Below are positions 11,953 to 31,378 of a stretch of 34,618 bases of DNA, one piece after another. The first letter of the stretch is position 1. The number at the start of each line of letters is the position of its first letter. The DNA is taken from positions 1-34,618 of the forward strand of contig JAGLCY010000104.1 of the NCBI GenBank assembly GCA_023270185.1, in the 5' to 3' direction. A program made the position numbers and the translations under genes. This stretch comes from Candidatus Krumholzibacteriia bacterium. GTDB lineage: Bacteria; Krumholzibacteriota; Krumholzibacteriia; LZORAL124-64-63. The notes beneath the pieces were generated by a model. That model made no database searches and was not told the DNA's origin. It was given only the letters and a program-made list of their open reading frames with translations.

Positions 11953-12069
11953 TTTATCTTTTTAGGGCCTTCCCTTGACTTGCGGGTCCGCCGGAGATCA
12001 CCTTTCTCTTTACAGGAGACTTATTGGGAACTTGTCCGGCCGGGTTCGGCGATCCACAGGGTTCATATC

Positions 12070-14187
12070 ATGAATGAAAAAAAATCCCTGCTGAACGACT
12101 TCGCCGTTCCCACCCTGGATGAATGGCGGGTGGAAGTCGAGCGTCTGCTCAAAGGCGCCCCCTTCGCCAAAAAGATGTTCACCAAAACCCTGGAAGGTCT
12201 GTCCGTCGGCCCCATGTACACGGCCGCCGATTCGTGTGACTTACCCTGGGGTAACGGAATGCCGGGGCAGGCTCCTTTTCTGCGGGGCAACCGGGCCGCG
12301 GGTTTCCACGCCGCTCCCTGGCTGGTCGCCCAGGAACTTCCCTTCCCCACCTGCGAGGCGTTCAACCAGGCGCTACACCATGATCTGCAGCGAGGACAGA
12401 CCGCAGTGAACCTGGTCCTGGACCGGGCCGGCCACGAGGGTCTGGATCCCGACCAGGCCGCCAGCAATCTGGTTGGCGCCGGTGGGACTTCCCTTGGTTC
12501 CCTGGCAGATCTCGAGACTGCTCTGGAGGGGGTCGATCTTTCCACTACCCCGTTTTTCGTGCAATCGGGTTCCTCGTTCCTGGCCGTTTGCGCCATGCTC
12601 ATCGCTCTGCTGAAAAAGCAGGGGATCGACGGTAATCTTTTGAGGGGCTGCGTCGGCAGCGATCCCATCTTCGGGTTGGTGAAACATGGCCGGATTCCCG
12701 TGTCGATGGATCAGGTCTACGATGAATTGGCCGTCCAGGCGCGGAATGCGGCCGAGCGCGCGCCCGCAATCCGTACCCTGCCCGTGTTCGAGGATCCATG
12801 GCACGAAGGAGGGGCGGACAGTGCCCTGAGCCTGGGCCTGACTCTCGCCGGGGCGGTGCATACCCTGCGGGCCATGGAGCAACGTGGCATCGAGCCAGCC
12901 ACCACCGCGACCCGCCTGCAATTCTTTGTTTCGATAGGCAGTGATTTTTTCATGGAGATCGCCAAGCTCCGCGCGCTGCGGATGCTCTGGTCCGACATCC
13001 TGACCGCTTCAGGCTGCCCGGCGGAGGCCGGCCGCGTTCCGATCCACGCCCGCACGAGCCGGCGCACACAGTCGGTCCTGGATCCCCACGTGAATATGTT
13101 GCGCGCCACGACACAGGCCATGTCCGCGGTCTTCGGCGGGGCGGACAGCCTGCATGTGAGTCCTTTCGATGAATCTTTCCGGGGGCCGGATGAATTCAGC
13201 CGTCGCATCGCCCGCAATGTGCAACTGATCCTGGCCCGGGAGTGTCGTTTTGATCAGGTGGCCGATCCCGCGGGAGGGTCGTGGTATGTGGAATCCCTTA
13301 CCCGGGATCTGGCCCGCGCGGCCTGGGAACATTTCCAGACGATCGAAAAGGCCGGGGGAATCCTGAAGGGCCTGGAGTCGGGGCTGGTTCAGGAGATGGT
13401 GGCAGAAGCGGCCGCTCGCCGGGCTGAACGTCTGGCCACCAGACGGGATGTTCTGATCGGAACCAACCAGTATCCTGATCCTGCCGACGCGCCTGATCCG
13501 GACCCGAAAATGGACCACGAGGAGTTCCATCGTCAACGGAATGCCGCCATGGAGGCCCAACGCACATCCAGCACCCAGGAGGGACACCTTCTGGTGTTGG
13601 CTCATCTGGAAAAGATCGTGGAAGTTGGCCCCGACCGGATGATGGAACGCATGATCGACGCGGCCAGCGAGGGAGCCACTCTCGGCGAACTGACCGGGGT
13701 ACTGCGGTACGAATCCGCTTCGGATCTGGAGATTGAACCCATTCCCCTCAGACGGGATGCCGAACCGTTCGAAAACCTGCGTGTCCGGGTAAAGGAGATG
13801 GGGCAAGCCAATGAAGACGGCGCCCGCGTCATGCTGGCCTGCCTGGGTGACACCGCCCGGTACATGCCCCGTCTGGAGTTCACGCGTCGCTTCTTCCGGG
13901 TCGGTGGGTTCGATATTGTGGAGCAGGGGTTCTTCAGCGATGTCGCTGCCGTTATAGAGGCCGCCCATGTGGCCGGCGCAGGTGCCGTGGCCCTGGTCGG
14001 GTTGGACGACACCTACTCGGAAATGGCCGCCGAGGCCGCCGCAAACCTGGGAGAACTGGATCCACCGCCCATGATATTCCTGGCCGGTCAGGCCGATATC
14101 GCCGGTGTGGATGAAACCATCCATGCCCGCAGTGATGTCCTGGACGTTCTGGGCCGCCTGGCCGCAAAGATGGAGGGTCGGTCATGA
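12070..14187 (+). CDS. mutA: Methylmalonyl-CoA mutase small (beta) subunit
   Basis: A 705-residue subunit homologous to the catalytic subunit but with a degenerate cobalamin domain. The N-terminal barrel region shows family motifs: '[14 protein letters not shown]', 'GPMYTAAD', '[15 protein letters not shown]', 'SLHVSPFDE', '[13 protein letters not shown]'. The C-terminal flavodoxin-like domain (about 565-700) lacks the DxHxxG adenosylcobalamin motif, reading '[14 protein letters not shown]' where the large subunit has 'DGHDRG'. This is the hallmark of the non-catalytic subunit of the heterodimer. The ATG is preceded by AGGG at 8 bases. A frame open upstream from a TTG at 11980 lacks a ribosome site and adds Arg-rich sequence. 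The stop overlaps the mutB start (ATGA), implying translational coupling and 1:1 assembly. Confidence 0.92.
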
Positions 14188-16376
14188 GCCGCATCCCCGA
14201 TTTCAGCGGTGTTCCTTTTCGCGGTCCCGACTCCGCGACCGATGCCGACGCGGCCCGCTGGCAGGATGAATTCACCGCGCAGGCGGGAGACGATACGACC
14301 TGGAATACCAACGAACAGATTCCGGTCAAGCCGTTGTACACCGCCGGCGATGCCGCAGGTCTCGAACACATCGGGCATGTGTCCGGTATGCCGCCGTTCC
14401 TGCGCGGACCCTATGCTTCGATGTACGTGACCAGGCCCTGGACCGTGCGTCAGTACGCCGGTTTCTCGACGGCCGAAGAAAGCAATGCCTTCTACCGGCG
14501 TAATCTGGCCGCGGGGCAGAAGGGTTTATCGGTGGCCTTCGACCTGGCCACGCACCGCGGGTACGACAGCGACCATCCCCGGGTGGTGGGCGATGTGGGC
14601 ATGGCCGGGGTGGCCATCGATTCGGTCCTGGACATGAAGACCCTGTTCGAGGACATCCCGCTGGATCGCATGTCCGTATCCATGACCATGAACGGCGCCG
14701 TTCTGCCGGTGATGGCCTTCTACATCGTGGCGGCGATGGAGCAGGGGGCCTCGTTGGACCAGCTGGCGGGCACCATCCAGAACGACATCCTCAAGGAATA
14801 CATGGTCCGTAACACGTATATCTACGGGCCGGAATTCAGCATGAGGATCATCGCCGACATCTTCGCCTACACCGCCGAGAACATGCCGAAGTTCAACAGC
14901 ATCTCCATCAGCGGTTATCATATGCAGGAGGCCGGAGCGACGGCCGACCTCGAGTTGGCCTACACCTTGGCCGATGGCCTGGAGTACGTGCGCACCGGCC
15001 TTAAGGCGGGGCTGGATATCGACGCCTTCGCGCCCCGGCTGTCCTTTTTCTGGGCCGAGGGCATGAACTATTTCATGGAGATGGCCAAGCTTCGCGCCGG
15101 TCGGGTGCTGTGGGCCAAGATGATCAGCGGGTTCAATCCCAAGAATCCCAAGTCGATGGCCTTGCGGACCCATTCCCAGACTTCGGGCTGGTCCCTGGCC
15201 GAGCAGGATCCCTTCAACAATGTTGCGCGCACCTGCATCGAAGGTATGGCCGCGGCCCTGGGGGGCACCCAGTCGCTGCACACCAACGCCCTGGACGAGG
15301 CCATCGCCCTGCCGACGGATTTCTCGGCGCGCATTGCCCGCAATACCCAGTTGTACCTGCAGGAAGAAACGAAGATCTGCCGCACGGTCGATCCCTGGGG
15401 CGGTTCCTGGTATCTTGAGAGCCTGACCCATGAGATCATGCACAAGGCTTGGGCCCACATCCAGGAGGTGGAGGGCCACGGTGGAATGGCCGCCGCCATC
15501 GGAAGCGGGTTGCCGAAGATGCGGATCGAAGAGGCGTCGGCCCGCCGGCAGGCCCACATCGATTCCGGCAGGGAGACCATTGTCGGGGTCAACAGGTACA
15601 GGTTGGCCAAGGAGGATCCCCTGGAGATCCTTGAAGTCGACAACACCGAAGTGCGCCGGCAACAGGTGGCGCGGCTGGACAAGTTGAAGGTCGAGCGGGA
15701 CAATCAGGCAGTTGCCGCGGCACTGGATGCCCTGACAAAATGTGCTGAAACGGGAGAGGGTAATCTGCTGGCGCTGTCGGTGGAAGCGGCCCTGCTCCGG
15801 GCAACCCTGGGTGAAATTTCCGACGCCATGGAAAAGGTTGTCGGGCGACACCAGGCGGCCATCCGCACCATCAGTGGAGTCTACTCGGCCGAATACGGAA
15901 AGGACGATGAGATCGACACCGTCGAAAGGATCGCCGCAACAATCCGCGCCTTCGAAAAACACGAAGGTCGGCGGCCGCGCCTCCTGGTGGCCAAGATGGG
16001 GCAGGATGGTCACGACCGCGGGGCCAAAGTGGTCGCCACGGCGTTTGCCGATCTAGGCTTCGACGTCGACGTGGGCCCGTTGTTCCAGACGCCCGAGGAG
16101 ACCGCCAGGCAGGCGGTCGAAAACGATGTGCACATCGTGGGCATGAGCAGCCTCGCGGCAGGTCATAAAACGCTGCTGCCCCAACTGGTGGCCGAACTCA
16201 AAAAACTGGGTCGCGAGGATATTCTGGTGACCTGCGGGGGAGTGATCCCGGCCCAGGATTACGAATTCCTCCGTGAGCATGGGGCGGTGGCTATCTTTGG
16301 CCCTGGCACCGTGATACCAGTGGCGGCGGAGAAACTGCTCGAAGAGCTGAATCGGCGACTGGGTTACAAAGACTGA
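14184..16376 (+). CDS. mutB: Methylmalonyl-CoA mutase large (alpha, catalytic) subunit
   Basis: A 730-residue adenosylcobalamin enzyme that interconverts (R)-methylmalonyl-CoA and succinyl-CoA, the final step in using propionyl-CoA from odd-chain fatty acids. The barrel domain has '[18 protein letters not shown]' and '[19 protein letters not shown]', typical of true methylmalonyl-CoA mutases rather than isobutyryl- or ethylmalonyl-CoA mutases. The C-terminal B12 domain has '[13 protein letters not shown]' with the axial ligand His610, then 'GMSSLAAGH' and 'TCGGVIP'. The length is normal for the large subunit. It is coupled to mutA by a 4-base overlap and followed 21 bases after the stop by a hairpin terminator. 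Its chaperone gene meaB lies about 12 kb downstream rather than adjacent. No epimerase or propionyl-CoA carboxylase is visible in the window. Confidence 0.95.
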
Positions 16377-24605: not shown

Positions 24606-26633
24606 GTGAAATTTTCAGCATCCCGATTCCTGACGACCGTCGCTTTTGTATTCCTGGCCAGCACGGTCTTTGCCGAACCCCCAGGTGAACAATCGATACC
24701 AGACGTCTTTTCCCGCCTTGAGGATGCCGGTCAGGCCTCCGATCACGAAGGGGCCGACCACCTGGTTGTGTTTACCGAAGCTGTCAACAACGTCAAACCC
24801 TCGGGCGTGACCTATGTGGACGGTTACGACTTGACCAAGGTGCTTACTCCGGAGGGCTGCCGGGACCAGTCTGTCCTGAGCTGGCACTACGATCCCCAGA
24901 GTAGTCACGTGGAGGTGCGTGAGGTCAATATCGTGCGCGGGGGAGAGCTGATTCCCGTGGACGTATCGGCAGTAAATGATTTACCCGCACCCCAGGCGGC
25001 GATCTACTGGAACGACCGGATCAAGACCCTTCAACTGCCCCGCCTGAGGGTTGATGACGGTATCGAGGTCAAAACCTTTCGCAAGGGATTCACCTATGCC
25101 CTGTTGTCTCAGGGTGAGGCGGGGGGCGCGGGTTCCTCGGAAGCTCCCGACGACGACCGATATATCCCGCCCATGCCCGGCGAGTATTTCGACATCGTTT
25201 TGTTTTCCGGCGGCGCGCCCATCCTGGAGAAGCGTTACGTGCTGCGGTTGCCGGCGGACAAGCGTCTGCACGCCGAGGTCTATAACGACGCCCTCTATTC
25301 CAGTGTCACCTACGACGACGAGATCACCGAATACGCCTGGTGGGGCCTGGATCTGCCGGGTGAGCTTCACGAACCGCGCCAGCCGGCTGCCAGCGACCTG
25401 TTTCCCAAGGTCGTCATGGCCACGGCCAAGAGCTGGGAAGCGAAGAGCCGCTGGTTTTTCGACGTGAACAGCAACCAGTTCGAAGTCACGCCAGCGATCC
25501 AGGAAAAGGTGGATGAGATTCTGAAGGATCAGGGCCTGACCCGGGCCGACGAGGAGCGCAAGGCCAAGGCCCTGTTGCACTGGGTGGCACAAAACATCCG
25601 CTACAGTGGTCAGACCATGGGTGAGGGTGAGGGGTTCACGCTGCATTCCGGGGAAATGATCTTCGAACAACGCAGCGGCGTGTGCAAGGACATCGCCGGG
25701 ATGCTGGTCACCATGATGCGCGCCGCGGGCATGGATTCCTACGCGGCGATGACCATGGCCGGCAGTCGGATCGACGAAGTGCCCGCCGACCAGTTCAACC
25801 ACTGCGTCACCGCCCTCAAACTGGAAGACGGCACCTTCCGCATGTACGACCCGACGTGGGTACCCTTCAACAACGACATCTGGTCGATGCTGGAAACCGA
25901 ACAGCATTACCTGGTGGGTACGCCCGAGGGCGAGACTCTCAGCCGTATCCGTTACAGCCCGCCTGCCGAGTCACCATTGAAGGTGACCCATGAAGCTAAG
26001 CTGGATACGGATGGCACCCTGACCGGGACCTTCCGATTCGAGGGCTCCGGTGCCATGGACGGCCGCCTGCGGCGCATCGTCAACGGGTCCAGGAAAAATG
26101 AATTGAACCACCGCTGCGCCCGCCTGCTGGACCCGGTCAGTTCGCGGGTCGAAGGCGTGAAGGTCAAACATCATCCCGTGGATGATTTCAGCGGTGATAT
26201 GTGGCTCGAATTCGAATACAGCATCCCGGTCTTTGTGCATCCGATCGCCGACGGGTTCGAATTCACAAGCCCCCTGATGCAGGTCGTGCTCAACGATGGG
26301 AACCTGTTCCGTTCCGGCGGCACGACCTGGGCCGAAGAACGGGAATCCGATCTGCTGCTCTGGTACACCCAACTGCTGGATGGATCCGAGACCATCAGGA
26401 TCCCCGGGGGTTACGCGCTGAACGATCCGCCGGAAAATGAAGAGGTCGACGAAACGTATGCTTCATTCAACGGATCGGTCGTGGAGAAGGGAAGCAAGCT
26501 GGTGTTGACCCACCGGGCCGAAGTCAGGCGCCGGCAGATCCCGCCCGATGGTTATCCCGGCTTCCGCAAGGCCATGGAAGCAGCGCGCGAATGGGGCGAT
26601 CAAACCTACCGCATCGAGAAGGGGGGCAAGTGA
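24606..26633 (+). CDS. Exported DUF3857 / transglutaminase-like protein (catalytic triad intact)
   Basis: A 675-residue protein with a signal peptide (hydrophobic residues to about 23, 'STVFAEPP'). A beta-rich DUF3857-type domain covers about 45-260 ('HVEVREVNIVRGGELIPVDV'). The transglutaminase-like papain-fold domain covers about 310-450, and a beta-rich C-terminal DUF3858-like part follows. The triad is intact: Cys360 in 'RSGVCKDIAGML', His399 in 'FNHCVTAL' and Asp415 in 'MYDPTW'. Such proteins are predicted periplasmic proteases or crosslinkers; true substrates are mostly unknown. The start is GTG with GAGG 6 bases upstream. Its stop shares one base with the next start (TGATG), coupling it to a paralogue that has lost the Cys. 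Confidence 0.88.
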   Translation: MKFSASRFLTTVAFVFLASTVFAEPPGEQSIPDVFSRLEDAGQASDHEGADHLVVFTEAVNNVKPSGVTYVDGYDLTKVLTPEGCRDQSVLSWHYDPQSSHVEVREVNIVRGGELIPVDVSAVNDLPAPQAAIYWNDRIKTLQLPRLRVDDGIEVKTFRKGFTYALLSQGEAGGAGSSEAPDDDRYIPPMPGEYFDIVLFSGGAPILEKRYVLRLPADKRLHAEVYNDALYSSVTYDDEITEYAWWGLDLPGELHEPRQPAASDLFPKVVMATAKSWEAKSRWFFDVNSNQFEVTPAIQEKVDEILKDQGLTRADEERKAKALLHWVAQNIRYSGQTMGEGEGFTLHSGEMIFEQRSGVCKDIAGMLVTMMRAAGMDSYAAMTMAGSRIDEVPADQFNHCVTALKLEDGTFRMYDPTWVPFNNDIWSMLETEQHYLVGTPEGETLSRIRYSPPAESPLKVTHEAKLDTDGTLTGTFRFEGSGAMDGRLRRIVNGSRKNELNHRCARLLDPVSSRVEGVKVKHHPVDDFSGDMWLEFEYSIPVFVHPIADGFEFTSPLMQVVLNDGNLFRSGGTTWAEERESDLLLWYTQLLDGSETIRIPGGYALNDPPENEEVDETYASFNGSVVEKGSKLVLTHRAEVRRRQIPPDGYPGFRKAMEAAREWGDQTYRIEKGGK

Positions 26634-28525
26634 TGAAAACCTTGAAGATAGTTTTGTTTGTCATTGCAATCATGTCACTTGCGGCCTTGTCTCTTGCTGC
26701 CGAGATGGGGGTTTCCGGTGGCCGCAATCTGGACGAGCTCTGGGCGCGGGCCCAGGCCGACCGTGATCTCTCGGCCGAGGACGCGGTGCTATTGTTGGAG
26801 AGTCAGCAGGTCACCCAGGCCGCCGACGGATCCCTCGCCACGCGTGTTCACCGGGTTGTCTGGATCGGTTCATCGGTTGGTATCCGCGGCTACGCGGATC
26901 TGCGGATTCCCTGGAACACGGCGACCTCGCAATTGGATGTCGAGATTCTGCGCACATGGCGCGACGGCAAGTGGTGGCCGGACGCCGAGACCATCAGCGA
27001 AACGGCCGTGGTCAACACACTGCCCTACGCGGTGAACCTCGCCGACGACTACACGACCATGCGCGAGACCATGCTTTTGCACGACGGGGTGGAACTGCCC
27101 TGCATCATGGAGACGGCCTACACCATCACCGAAACCGGTCTGCCGGGCGCCGACGGTTTGTTCGTGATGCCCCGGCGTGATTTCTCCGCGCTCACCGAAC
27201 TGCAGGTGACCGTCCCGGCGGCATCGGCGCTTCACTATGAAATGTTGAACGGTGTGACCGAACCGGTCATCGAGGAAATAGAGGGCGCGGTGACCACGTC
27301 CTGGCGTATGGAAAATGTTCCTTCCCTGCTGACACCGGTCACTGACGCTCCGGCAGCGTATGAACCGACGGTCGTCTGGTCGACCTGGTCGGAGTGGACG
27401 GCCCTGCGCGACCACTGGCGTAAAGGGTTCGATGAAGCTGCCGTCCTGGATGAGGCCCTGACGGATTCACTTCAAACCTGGGTCGAAAATGCACCCAGCT
27501 ATTGGAGTCGGCTCCAGGCAGTGACTGACCAGGTGAACCGGTACGTCCGGGGCGTCCATTACCCCGACAGGTTCTGGACGTTCACCCCGCGCGATGCCGT
27601 CCGCACCTGGGACACCGCGTACGGCCATCCGTTGGATCGCGCCGTACTGACCGCCGCCTTGTTGCGCGCGGCGGGTTACGAGGTCACCCCGATTTTCGTT
27701 GGTACCGGTCACAGCCTGGTCGGACCGGAGATCGCCCGGCTGAATGGAATGGGGAAACTGCATCTGAGCATCAAGGGTGATCCCGCAGGTCTGTACGATC
27801 CCGACCATGGCGTATTGTCGGGACAGGCCCCGCTGATTGGTTTGCCCATTTGGCGCACCGACAAGTTCTTTGAGCCCTTCCTGGGCAATTCCCAGTGGCC
27901 GAACCGTCTGGAAGTGACGGTGACCCTTGAGCCCGGGGACGACGGCCATTGGCAGGGGTCGGGCCAGTTCCACGCCGCGGGTATTTTCTGCCCTCAGGGC
28001 GATATGGCGGGCATGGATGAAGGCGCCCGCGATTACCTCACCGGTGTTGTCGGCGGCGTGATCGACGGTGCGATCCTTGGGTGGACCAACCCCGAGATAT
28101 TCCATCAGCATCAGGTCATTTTCGGCTTTGGTGTCGATGTGGAGAAACCGGAACCGGAGGCTTCGGGCCGGACGCGCCTGATCGTCGGCTCTCCGAGCCA
28201 CGGTCTGGCGAGCAGGGCTGGGAGTATCCATCTTTATGAGGATGCACGAAAATCCCCGGTCATGCTGGCCGGACCCATGGAACAGTTGGTTAAGGTTCGT
28301 CTGAAAGTCGGCGAGACCGAGGCTGCTCATTTGCCGGAACCCGTTTCCCTGGTGAATGAAGCCGGGGAGTTCACGGTAACCTCGACGACAAAGGACGGCT
28401 GGATCACCATCGAACGGGAGTTGAAACTCACGGCGGATTCATATCCGGCTGAAATGTGGCCCCAGTTGCGGGCCCTGCTGCTGGAGGATGCCGATCCTGC
28501 CAACGGCGTCATTCTGCTGGATTGA
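26633..28525 (+). CDS. Exported DUF3857 / transglutaminase-like protein lacking the catalytic Cys (pseudoenzyme)
   Basis: A 630-residue paralogue of the preceding gene, with a signal peptide (hydrophobic 'IVLFVIAIMSLAALSLAA') and a DUF3857-like domain ('VLLLESQQVTQAADGSLATR'). Its transglutaminase-like region reads 'AYGHPLDRAVLTAALLRAAG' where the neighbour has 'RSGVCKDIAGMLVTMMRAAG', so Pro333 replaces the catalytic Cys. The His (His377, 'KLHLSIKG') and the Asp (Asp389, 'LYDPDHG') are kept. It is probably catalytically dead yet keeps the fold, so a binding or scaffolding role with its neighbour is likely. The frame is intact and its structure conserved, so it is not a decayed pseudogene. The start follows GGGGGG and overlaps the upstream stop by one base. 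meaB begins 43 bases downstream. Confidence 0.85.
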   Translation: MKTLKIVLFVIAIMSLAALSLAAEMGVSGGRNLDELWARAQADRDLSAEDAVLLLESQQVTQAADGSLATRVHRVVWIGSSVGIRGYADLRIPWNTATSQLDVEILRTWRDGKWWPDAETISETAVVNTLPYAVNLADDYTTMRETMLLHDGVELPCIMETAYTITETGLPGADGLFVMPRRDFSALTELQVTVPAASALHYEMLNGVTEPVIEEIEGAVTTSWRMENVPSLLTPVTDAPAAYEPTVVWSTWSEWTALRDHWRKGFDEAAVLDEALTDSLQTWVENAPSYWSRLQAVTDQVNRYVRGVHYPDRFWTFTPRDAVRTWDTAYGHPLDRAVLTAALLRAAGYEVTPIFVGTGHSLVGPEIARLNGMGKLHLSIKGDPAGLYDPDHGVLSGQAPLIGLPIWRTDKFFEPFLGNSQWPNRLEVTVTLEPGDDGHWQGSGQFHAAGIFCPQGDMAGMDEGARDYLTGVVGGVIDGAILGWTNPEIFHQHQVIFGFGVDVEKPEPEASGRTRLIVGSPSHGLASRAGSIHLYEDARKSPVMLAGPMEQLVKVRLKVGETEAAHLPEPVSLVNEAGEFTVTSTTKDGWITIERELKLTADSYPAEMWPQLRALLLEDADPANGVILLD

Positions 28526-28568
28526 AATTCGTGAAACCCGGGGCACTTTCCCGAAAAGCCAGGGAGCC

Positions 28569-29687
28569 ATGAGCAGTCAGGACAAGAAAAAACAGCCGGC
28601 CAATCCTTCGGCCCTCAACGTCCGCAAAGGTGTGGACGGCGGTCATGATGGATTGCCTGGCCATTCCACCGGCAGCGGTGGCGACAACGGTGACGGGCCC
28701 CGGCGGCGCCTGCTGTCCGCCCGGGAATACATCGACGGTGTCCTGTCGGGGGACCGGGTCCTTCTGGCCCGGGCCATCACCTTGATTGAATCCAACGCGT
28801 CGGCCCATCAGGAAGTGGCCCAGGAAGTCCTGACCGCCCTGCTGCCCAGGCGCTGCGAATCGATCCGCGTGGGCATCACCGGGGTGCCGGGCGCGGGCAA
28901 GAGCACCTTCATCGAAGCCCTTGGTAAAGGCCTGACTTCTCGCGGGCACCAGGTCGCCGTCACGGCGGTTGATCCTTCCAGCAGCCTGACCGGTGGCAGC
29001 ATTCTGGGCGACAAGACCCGGATGGAAAAGCTGGCGGCCGACCCCAATGCCTTCATTCGCCCCTCGCCGACCGGCGGCACCCTTGGCGGGGTGGCCCGCA
29101 AGACCCGCGAGACGATCATGCTGTTCGAGGCGGCGGGCTTCGACGTGATCCTGGTCGAGACCGTAGGGGTGGGGCAGAGCGAGATCCAGGTCCGGTCCAT
29201 GGTCGACTTCTTCCTGCTGGTGCTGCTGGCCGGGGCCGGGGATGAACTTCAGGGCATCAAGAAGGGTGTGGTCGAGATTGCCGACGCCATCCTCGTGAAC
29301 AAGGCCGACGGCAAGGGCCTGGCGGCGGCCCGGAGCGCCCGCTCCGAATTCGAACGGGTGCTGCACTACCTGAGACCGGCCACCGAGGGCTGGGTCACTG
29401 GGGCCTTCAACTGCTCTTCGGCCACCGGTGAAGGCGTTATGGAGATGTGGGCGGTGGTGGAGAAATTCGCCGAACTGACCCGCGGGTCAGGGGTGCACGA
29501 CCGGCGCCGCTCGACACAGGAACAGGCGTGGGTCAGGGCCCTGGTCAGGGAGGGGCTGGAGGATCTGTTCCAATCCCACCCCGGTGTTTCCGAACAGATG
29601 GCCATCCTCGAACAGCAGGTGGCGCGGGGCGAACTGCCCGCCACGTCGGCTGCCCGGAAACTGCTGGATATGTTCCGAAACGGCTGA
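28569..29687 (+). CDS. meaB: Methylmalonyl-CoA mutase-associated GTPase MeaB
   Basis: A 372-residue G3E-type P-loop GTPase that loads and protects the adenosylcobalamin cofactor of methylmalonyl-CoA mutase. The Walker A motif is 'GVPGAGKST' (105-113, Lys111). The family motifs 'VDPSSSLTGGSILGDKTRM', 'IRPSPTGGTLGGVARKTRE' and 'ETVGVGQSE' are all present, and 'NKADG' is the guanine-specificity motif. The N-terminal stretch 'LNVRKGV' followed by a Gly-rich low-complexity linker resembles Bacteroidota MeaB proteins. The chosen ATG follows AGGGAG closely. It is not next to mutA-mutB (about 12 kb apart) but sits behind the transglutaminase-like pair and ahead of cysS. ArgK is an older name for this family. 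Confidence 0.93.
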   Translation: MSSQDKKKQPANPSALNVRKGVDGGHDGLPGHSTGSGGDNGDGPRRRLLSAREYIDGVLSGDRVLLARAITLIESNASAHQEVAQEVLTALLPRRCESIRVGITGVPGAGKSTFIEALGKGLTSRGHQVAVTAVDPSSSLTGGSILGDKTRMEKLAADPNAFIRPSPTGGTLGGVARKTRETIMLFEAAGFDVILVETVGVGQSEIQVRSMVDFFLLVLLAGAGDELQGIKKGVVEIADAILVNKADGKGLAAARSARSEFERVLHYLRPATEGWVTGAFNCSSATGEGVMEMWAVVEKFAELTRGSGVHDRRRSTQEQAWVRALVREGLEDLFQSHPGVSEQMAILEQQVARGELPATSAARKLLDMFRNG

Positions 29688-29770: not shown

Positions 29771-31378
29771 ATGAGCGAAATGAATGCCGCGACACTGCCG
29801 ACCATCTCACTGTTCGATACCATGACCGGTAGGAAACAGGAACTTCAGACCCTTGAGCCCGGCCATTGCGGAATGTACTGCTGCGGGCCGACGGTCTACG
29901 GCCTGAGCCATCTGGGGAATGCCCGGGCCGCGCTGGTTCCGGACGTGATGGTGCGCTTTCTGCGGCACCAGGGTTACGAGGTGAAGTACGTGCGCAACAT
30001 CACCGACATCGACGACAAGATCATCAAACTCGGCAGCGAAGAAGGCATCCCCGCGCAGGAAGTGGCGGACAGGTACGCGGCCGAATACAAACGGGACATG
30101 GCGGACCTCAACATCCTCGATCCCGATGTCGAGCCCCGGGTCAGCGAGCACGTTCCCCAGATCGTGGATCTCGTGCAGACCCTGATCGACAAGGATCTGG
30201 CCTACGAGGTGGAGGGTGACGTCTACTACCGGATCAAAAACTTCAAGGGTTACGGCAAACTGAGCAAGCGGAACATCGAGGAGATGCTCGAAAGCGCCGG
30301 TAGCCGTATCGATGTGGACCAGCGCAAGGAATCGCCCCTCGATTTCGCCCTCTGGAAGGCGGCCAAACCGGGTGAGCCCGGCTGGGACAGTCCCTGGGGA
30401 CAGGGGCGGCCCGGTTGGCATATCGAATGCTCGGCCATGAGCTCCACGCATCTGGGCGACAGCTTCGACATCCATGGTGGGGGACGCGACCTGATCTTCC
30501 CTCACCACGAAAACGAGATCGCCCAGAGCCAGGGCGCCCACGGTGAGGATACGTACGCCCGCTACTGGTCGCACAACGGGTTCATCGACTTTGATGGGGA
30601 GAAGATGTCCAAGAGCCTGGGCAACTTCTTCACCACTCGGGAAATCACCGCGCTGTACGACCCCGAAGCGGTGCGCTACTTCCTTCTGACTGTCCATTAC
30701 CGGAGCGGGCTGAACTTCGAGGTCGAGGTCAAGTGCCCCTCTTGCGGGGCCTTGATGGACAAGGAAGGTCAGGAGAGCGGTCGCTGCCCCACCTGCGAAA
30801 CCGAAACGCCTACGGATGTGCTGCGCAAGCAGGTGCGGTTCCCCGGGTTGGAGGAAGCCGATGACCGTATGGCCTACATCTACTCGACTTTGTCCCAGGC
30901 TCGCCGTTTTCTCGCCACGGCCAAAAAGCCGGGCAACGAAGAGCCGGTCACCAGCGGCGTGGAGGGCATGCTGATGACCTTTGTCGCCCACATGCGCAAT
31001 GACTTCAACACCAGCGGCGCGCTCGGAGCGCTGAGCAAGGCGCTGGGCGAGGTCAATGGTCTGCTGGATTCGGGCAAGGGCGTCAGCAAGGCTGTTCGGT
31101 ACCTGACCATCGAACGCTTCGTGAGCGATATGGCGGAGGTGGCGGATATTCTTGGCTGCTTCGGGCAGGATCCCGACCAGTGGCTCGCCAATCGCCGGGA
31201 TGGGAAAGCCGCTCGGATGGGACTGGATATCGCCAAGGTGGAGAATCTTCTGGTCAAGCGGACCACCGCCCGCGGCGACAAGGACTGGGAAGCCGCCGAC
31301 CGCATCCGGGACGAGCTTACCGAACTGGGTGTGGGTGTGCAGGATGGTCCCGACGGCTCGGTCTGGTCGTTTCTCTGA
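29771..31378 (+). CDS. cysS: Cysteinyl-tRNA synthetase with a zinc-ribbon-like insertion
   Basis: A 535-residue class I synthetase that charges tRNA-Cys in the cytoplasm. The HIGH motif is 'HLGN' (His47), the KMSKS loop spans 278-282, and the active-site zinc ligands fit 'MYCCGPTVYG', 'WHIECSAMSS' and 'FPHHENEIAQ'. It is longer than a typical bacterial CysRS (about 460 aa, E. coli 461). Part of the excess is a segment after 'HYRSGLNFEVEV' holding Cys322-x2-Cys325 and Cys339-x2-Cys342 ('CPSCG' ... 'CPTCE'), which looks like a second zinc ribbon at the junction of the catalytic and anticodon-binding parts. The C-terminal helical domain continues normally afterwards ('RNDFNTSGALGALSKALGE'). It stands 83 bases after meaB; I see no clear promoter in the gap, so cotranscription is possible. 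Confidence 0.95.
   Translation: MSEMNAATLPTISLFDTMTGRKQELQTLEPGHCGMYCCGPTVYGLSHLGNARAALVPDVMVRFLRHQGYEVKYVRNITDIDDKIIKLGSEEGIPAQEVADRYAAEYKRDMADLNILDPDVEPRVSEHVPQIVDLVQTLIDKDLAYEVEGDVYYRIKNFKGYGKLSKRNIEEMLESAGSRIDVDQRKESPLDFALWKAAKPGEPGWDSPWGQGRPGWHIECSAMSSTHLGDSFDIHGGGRDLIFPHHENEIAQSQGAHGEDTYARYWSHNGFIDFDGEKMSKSLGNFFTTREITALYDPEAVRYFLLTVHYRSGLNFEVEVKCPSCGALMDKEGQESGRCPTCETETPTDVLRKQVRFPGLEEADDRMAYIYSTLSQARRFLATAKKPGNEEPVTSGVEGMLMTFVAHMRNDFNTSGALGALSKALGEVNGLLDSGKGVSKAVRYLTIERFVSDMAEVADILGCFGQDPDQWLANRRDGKAARMGLDIAKVENLLVKRTTARGDKDWEAADRIRDELTELGVGVQDGPDGSVWSFL

Follow-up and report, generated by a model that had tools for sequence, protein, structure and literature searches.

The window, a stretch of 34,618 nucleotides, is a whole contig (JAGLCY010000104.1) of the draft genome GCA_023270185.1 of a Candidatus Krumholzibacteriia bacterium. 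On its forward strand lie two adjacent genes for DUF3857 proteins, ORF1 and ORF2 (Table 1). The original prediction had placed a one-base overlap between them, and both its gene coordinates and the single shared base, which falls within a TGATG stop/start sequence, proved correct. It had also taken both products to be exported, and the two N-termini indeed resemble signal peptides. A simple script detected a lipobox in 1 of 32 ORF1 homologues and in none of 35 ORF2 homologues; because these N-termini look like ordinary signal peptides without a lipobox, both proteins are probably soluble in the periplasm. The pair stands directly in front of the gene for the MeaB GTPase (window positions 28488-29687), and both subunits of methylmalonyl-CoA mutase are encoded on the same contig about 12 kb away (11980-16376). 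The cysteine--tRNA ligase (29771-31378) carries a CPSCGALMDKEGQESGRCPTC zinc-ribbon-like insert at about residues 320-365, between its catalytic part and its C-terminal domains.

Table 1. Features of the ORF1/ORF2 locus, numbered from the first base of the window.
Feature	Position	Strand	Basis
ORF1, predicted exported DUF3857 + transglutaminase-like enzyme, 675 aa, GTG start, Cys-His-Asp intact	24606..26633	+	Pfam, homologue alignment
ORF1 signal peptide, about residues 1-23, without lipobox	24606..24674	+	sequence; cleavage site inferred
ORF1 DUF3857 domain	24834..25343	+	Pfam
ORF1 Transglut_core domain (PF01841)	25545..25853	+	Pfam, E 1.7e-9
ORF1 Cys360 codon	25683..25685	+	sequence, alignment of homologues
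ORF1 His399 codon	25800..25802	+	sequence, alignment of homologues
ORF1 Asp415 codon	25848..25850	+	sequence, alignment of homologues
TGATG stop/start overlap, probable translational coupling	26631..26635	+	sequence; overlap in related loci
ORF2, predicted exported Cys-less pseudoenzyme (DUF3857 / transglutaminase-like fold / DUF3858), 630 aa, ATG start	26633..28525	+	Pfam, alignments, fold model
ORF2 signal peptide, about residues 1-23, without lipobox	26633..26701	+	sequence; cleavage site inferred
ORF2 DUF3857 domain, most conserved portion of ORF2	26822..27322	+	Pfam (7.3e-15), conservation
ORF2 Pro333 codon at catalytic Cys position	27629..27631	+	hhalign, MAFFT
ORF2 Lys375 codon at catalytic His position	27755..27757	+	hhalign, MAFFT
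ORF2 DUF3858 domain	28241..28516	+	Pfam

Pfam detected Transglut_core in ORF1, with a score of 38.3 bits (cut-off 23), and did not detect it in ORF2. Cys360, His399 and Asp415, the catalytic residues originally proposed for ORF1, are present at these numbers, and the triad is kept in all 40 homologues from Krumholzibacteriota relatives that cover the site. Constraint along ORF1 is highest in this catalytic core, with a mean majority frequency of 0.81. Domain and triad together mark ORF1 as a predicted active-type member of the transglutaminase-like superfamily, whose bacterial members are proteases or amidases more often than crosslinkers. The putative chemistry of ORF1 could be that of a protease, an amidase or a transglutaminase, and crosslinking would be suggested by the family name alone.

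In ORF2, hhalign and MAFFT set Pro333, Lys375 and Asp389 opposite Cys360, His399 and Asp415 of ORF1. The proline at the Cys position of an otherwise alignable segment had thus been recognized correctly. The accompanying claim that ORF2 keeps His377 and Asp389 is right as to the residues at those numbers but wrong as to the catalytic His position, which Lys375 occupies: His377 lies two residues away from it and is found in 2 of 41 ORF2 relatives. Of the 36 ORF2 relatives that have a residue at the Asp389 position, 28 keep the Asp, which is therefore frequent without being invariant. Among 41 homologues, the Cys position is held by Ala (8), Asp (8), Val (8), Pro (7), Gly (6), Ser (2), Arg (1) and Cys (1), and the sole homologue with Cys there (locus L037) has Glu at its His position. 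At the sequence level we found no other cysteine in the ORF2 site, a finding that the original prediction had named as grounds for abandoning it. With Pro333 and Lys375 in place of Cys and His, ORF2 is predicted to be inactive as a cysteine enzyme. Mean majority frequency in ORF2 is 0.64 in the DUF3857 domain against 0.50 in the core, and 20 residues are invariant among ORF2 relatives. Pfam further identified a DUF3858 domain in ORF2, and not in ORF1, at 5.3e-6 and 27.0 bits, exactly the cut-off; it is present in 26 of 33 ORF2 relatives.

BLASTP detected no significant similarity between the two proteins (E 0.19), whereas profiles built from their respective relatives aligned over the full length in hhalign (probability 99.6%, 602 columns), which makes them paralogues of one architecture. 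Of the original description of both as DUF3857/transglutaminase proteins, DUF3857 is confirmed for the two, and Transglut_core is confined to ORF1. Since similarity at the BLASTP level has been lost, the duplication must be old; the original prediction understated its age and missed the DUF3858 domain. Divergence has been uneven: ORF2 is more diverged than ORF1 in 300 of 300 species pairs, with mean identities of 39% for ORF2 and 63% for ORF1.

A survey of 78 genomes recovered close ORF1 homologues (E < 1e-30) in 53, and ORF2 was also present in 52 of these, in one case (G048) as no more than a weak fragment, located on a contig other than that of ORF1. The sole ORF1-bearing genome without ORF2 (G074) has a contig that stops inside ORF1, and none of the 78 genomes contained ORF2 without ORF1. 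A single contig holds both genes in 52 genomes, two of which came from the search for ORF2, and in every one of them ORF1 precedes ORF2 on a shared strand; as the genomes of one class are related, the pair counts cannot be treated as independent. Relative to the end of the ORF1 stop codon, 35 of 38 related loci have a start codon at -1 or -4. The Cys-less gene thus always follows the active one on these contigs, the point that the original prediction had proposed to survey, and order, overlap and co-occurrence contradict the outcome it had named as refuting, a pair that is not conserved. The locus accordingly displays the co-occurrence and gene coupling sought in an enzyme/pseudoenzyme heteromer. 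The closest named relative of the draft genome is a Candidatus Krumholzibacteriia MAG (72% identity in ORF2). We detected no other conserved neighbour genes around the pair, so genomic context offers no functional clue. Open frames of about 1360-1470 aa in relatives were considered as ORF1-ORF2 fusions and rejected as overlapping frames of separate genes.

The pair also occurs outside the phylum. In Parabacteroides distasonis, a plasmid record (NZ_OY725779.1) encodes a protein homologous to ORF1 (35% identity over 92%) followed, 13 nt behind, by the gene for a DUF3858 protein whose product is identical over 505 residues to the solved structure PDB 3KD4 (BDI_1141). The first protein has C-H-D at the triad positions and the second P/T/S. 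This pair was reached through the ORF1 search, as no direct ORF2 match was found among plasmids; a wider search in viral contigs likewise found nothing. 3KD4 matches the ORF2 profile at 8.5e-30 and the ORF1 profile at 7.4e-10, and it resembles ORF2 in its DUF3857 and DUF3858 domains, as its best fold match, in the proline at the Cys position and in the place of its gene directly behind an active-type DUF3857-transglutaminase gene. It differs in being shorter (527 aa), only 19% identical, and separated from its partner gene by a gap instead of an overlap; it is titled "putative protease" although it has no catalytic residues. In a tree of 19 ORF1-type and 19 ORF2-type proteins, built without the catalytic columns, the ORF1-type clade (support 100/100) and the ORF2-type clade (100/99) each include their P. 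distasonis member. ORF2 thus shares with 3KD4 both the succession of DUF3857 and DUF3858 and a clade apart from the active proteins. Because the two clades span both phyla, the pair either predates their separation or moved as a unit, with Bacteroidota represented by a single pair.

Within the phylum we observed five further tandem DUF3857 pairs (L092, L093, L094, L095 and L098), each with the intact gene first and the Cys-less one directly behind; a single origin of all Cys-less partners is compatible with the tree but weakly supported (79/37). Other arrangements were also seen. The source genome encodes a third DUF3857 protein of 484 aa (G000:C399:37939-38277; L088:5094-6548, minus strand), which by eye has Ser in the Cys-equivalent stretch, RFGKSALMYAM, and looks like a lone Cys-less member with no adjoining active gene. 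Three loci (L089, L090 and L097) contain open frames of about 1300 aa with an intact DUF3857-transglutaminase part at the C-terminal end.

Structure models were obtained for both proteins, with pLDDT 90.7 for ORF2 and 83.3 for ORF1; in Foldseek searches the best solved match of each is 3KD4 (TM-score by target 0.78 and 0.80, respectively). Foldseek also returned weak local similarity to M1 aminopeptidases, which perhaps reflects their N-terminal beta domain. In the model of ORF1 alone, segments 128-136 and 336-345 fall below pLDDT 50 despite containing invariant residues. These loops may become ordered on partner binding, or their low pLDDT may reflect a shallow alignment (Neff 2.6).

We favor, at a probability of roughly 0.6, an ancient coupled pair of enzyme and pseudoenzyme that probably forms a periplasmic heteromer. 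ORF1, in which the Cys-His-Asp site is complete, would be a secreted transglutaminase-like cysteine enzyme, presumably acting on peptide or amide bonds; ORF2, its ancient paralogue stripped of the catalytic Cys and His, would be retained as a non-catalytic partner. The stop/start overlap would couple translation in vivo, so that the two are made in step before export, and ORF2 could then bind ORF1 and activate it, stabilize it or present substrate to it. The dedicated pseudoenzyme partner of the original prediction is strongly supported by gene order, overlap, co-occurrence, the contrast of kept and lost triads and recurrence in a second phylum, and a heteromeric complex or regulatory subunit appears the most likely reading. 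Conserved adjacency would also be expected if the two proteins worked one after the other or if both bound a single substrate, and the faster evolution of ORF2 would argue against a tight interface across much of its surface.

In an unlikely alternative, ORF2 is a separate periplasmic binding protein, a receptor or chaperone of enzymatic descent, that handles the substrate or product of ORF1 and is co-expressed with it without ever touching it. The retained fold, the conservation of the DUF3857 beta domain above all other parts of ORF2 and the local M1 aminopeptidase similarity would suit such a binder, whereas the frequent gene overlap points to matched production and the two genes are present or absent as a unit. 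It is quite improbable that ORF2 instead has catalytic activity of its own from a site that has moved or changed, for instance at Cys157, invariant among 33 ORF2 relatives, or at the acidic residue that some members carry at the old Cys position, where others have Ser or Cys: eight different residues occupy that position, the model puts Cys157 in a DUF3857 strand rather than where the core helix begins, and its equivalent in the P. distasonis protein is not Cys. An unimportant decaying duplicate, with which the greater divergence of ORF2 in every species pair would agree, is highly implausible because of conservation, as an open frame and a signal peptide are kept across the class along with the fold and the overlap, invariant residues persist and the pair recurs in a second phylum.

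Returning to the enzyme/pseudoenzyme pair, the fold, both domains and the solved structure of one partner were already known. Our literature search, which covered few subscription papers, found no description of an active/dead DUF3857 pair, nor any treatment of 3KD4 or BDI_1141 as part of one, and no account there of the two paralogues, one active and one dead, as a unit. The reading gives DUF3857 and DUF3858, names for domains of unknown function, a testable context, and makes 3KD4, solved as a "putative protease", very likely a pseudoenzyme with an active-type partner gene just upstream. The pair could serve as a simple bacterial model for the retention of dead paralogues beside live enzymes, and it can be tested in P. 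distasonis, a culturable gut bacterium. More tentatively, and less likely than not, it may represent a class of bacterial envelope enzymes that is new to description, kept in Krumholzibacteriota and Bacteroidota and repeated in further DUF3857 lineages, whose catalytic subunit would need an ancient dead paralogue to order a conserved loop before the catalytic Cys.

Single DUF3857-transglutaminase proteins on plasmids of Paraburkholderia, Agrobacterium and Aureibacter have the two domains of ORF1, by annotation or Pfam; unlike ORF1, they have no Cys-less partner next to them in the annotation of the stretches inspected. Erythrocyte band 4.2 is a non-catalytic protein with a transglutaminase fold and a lost Cys; unlike ORF2, it is a structural component of the membrane skeleton and is not known to share a genetic unit with an active enzyme. 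Comparable in working principle are two trypanosome pairs, AdoMetDC with its prozyme and deoxyhypusine synthase with its dead paralogue, in which a dead partner is retained beside the live enzyme and activates it (PMC5201418, PMC3663545). They belong to other enzyme families, are eukaryotic and do not form an exported operon pair, and as precedents for the principle they suggest that ORF2 might activate ORF1.
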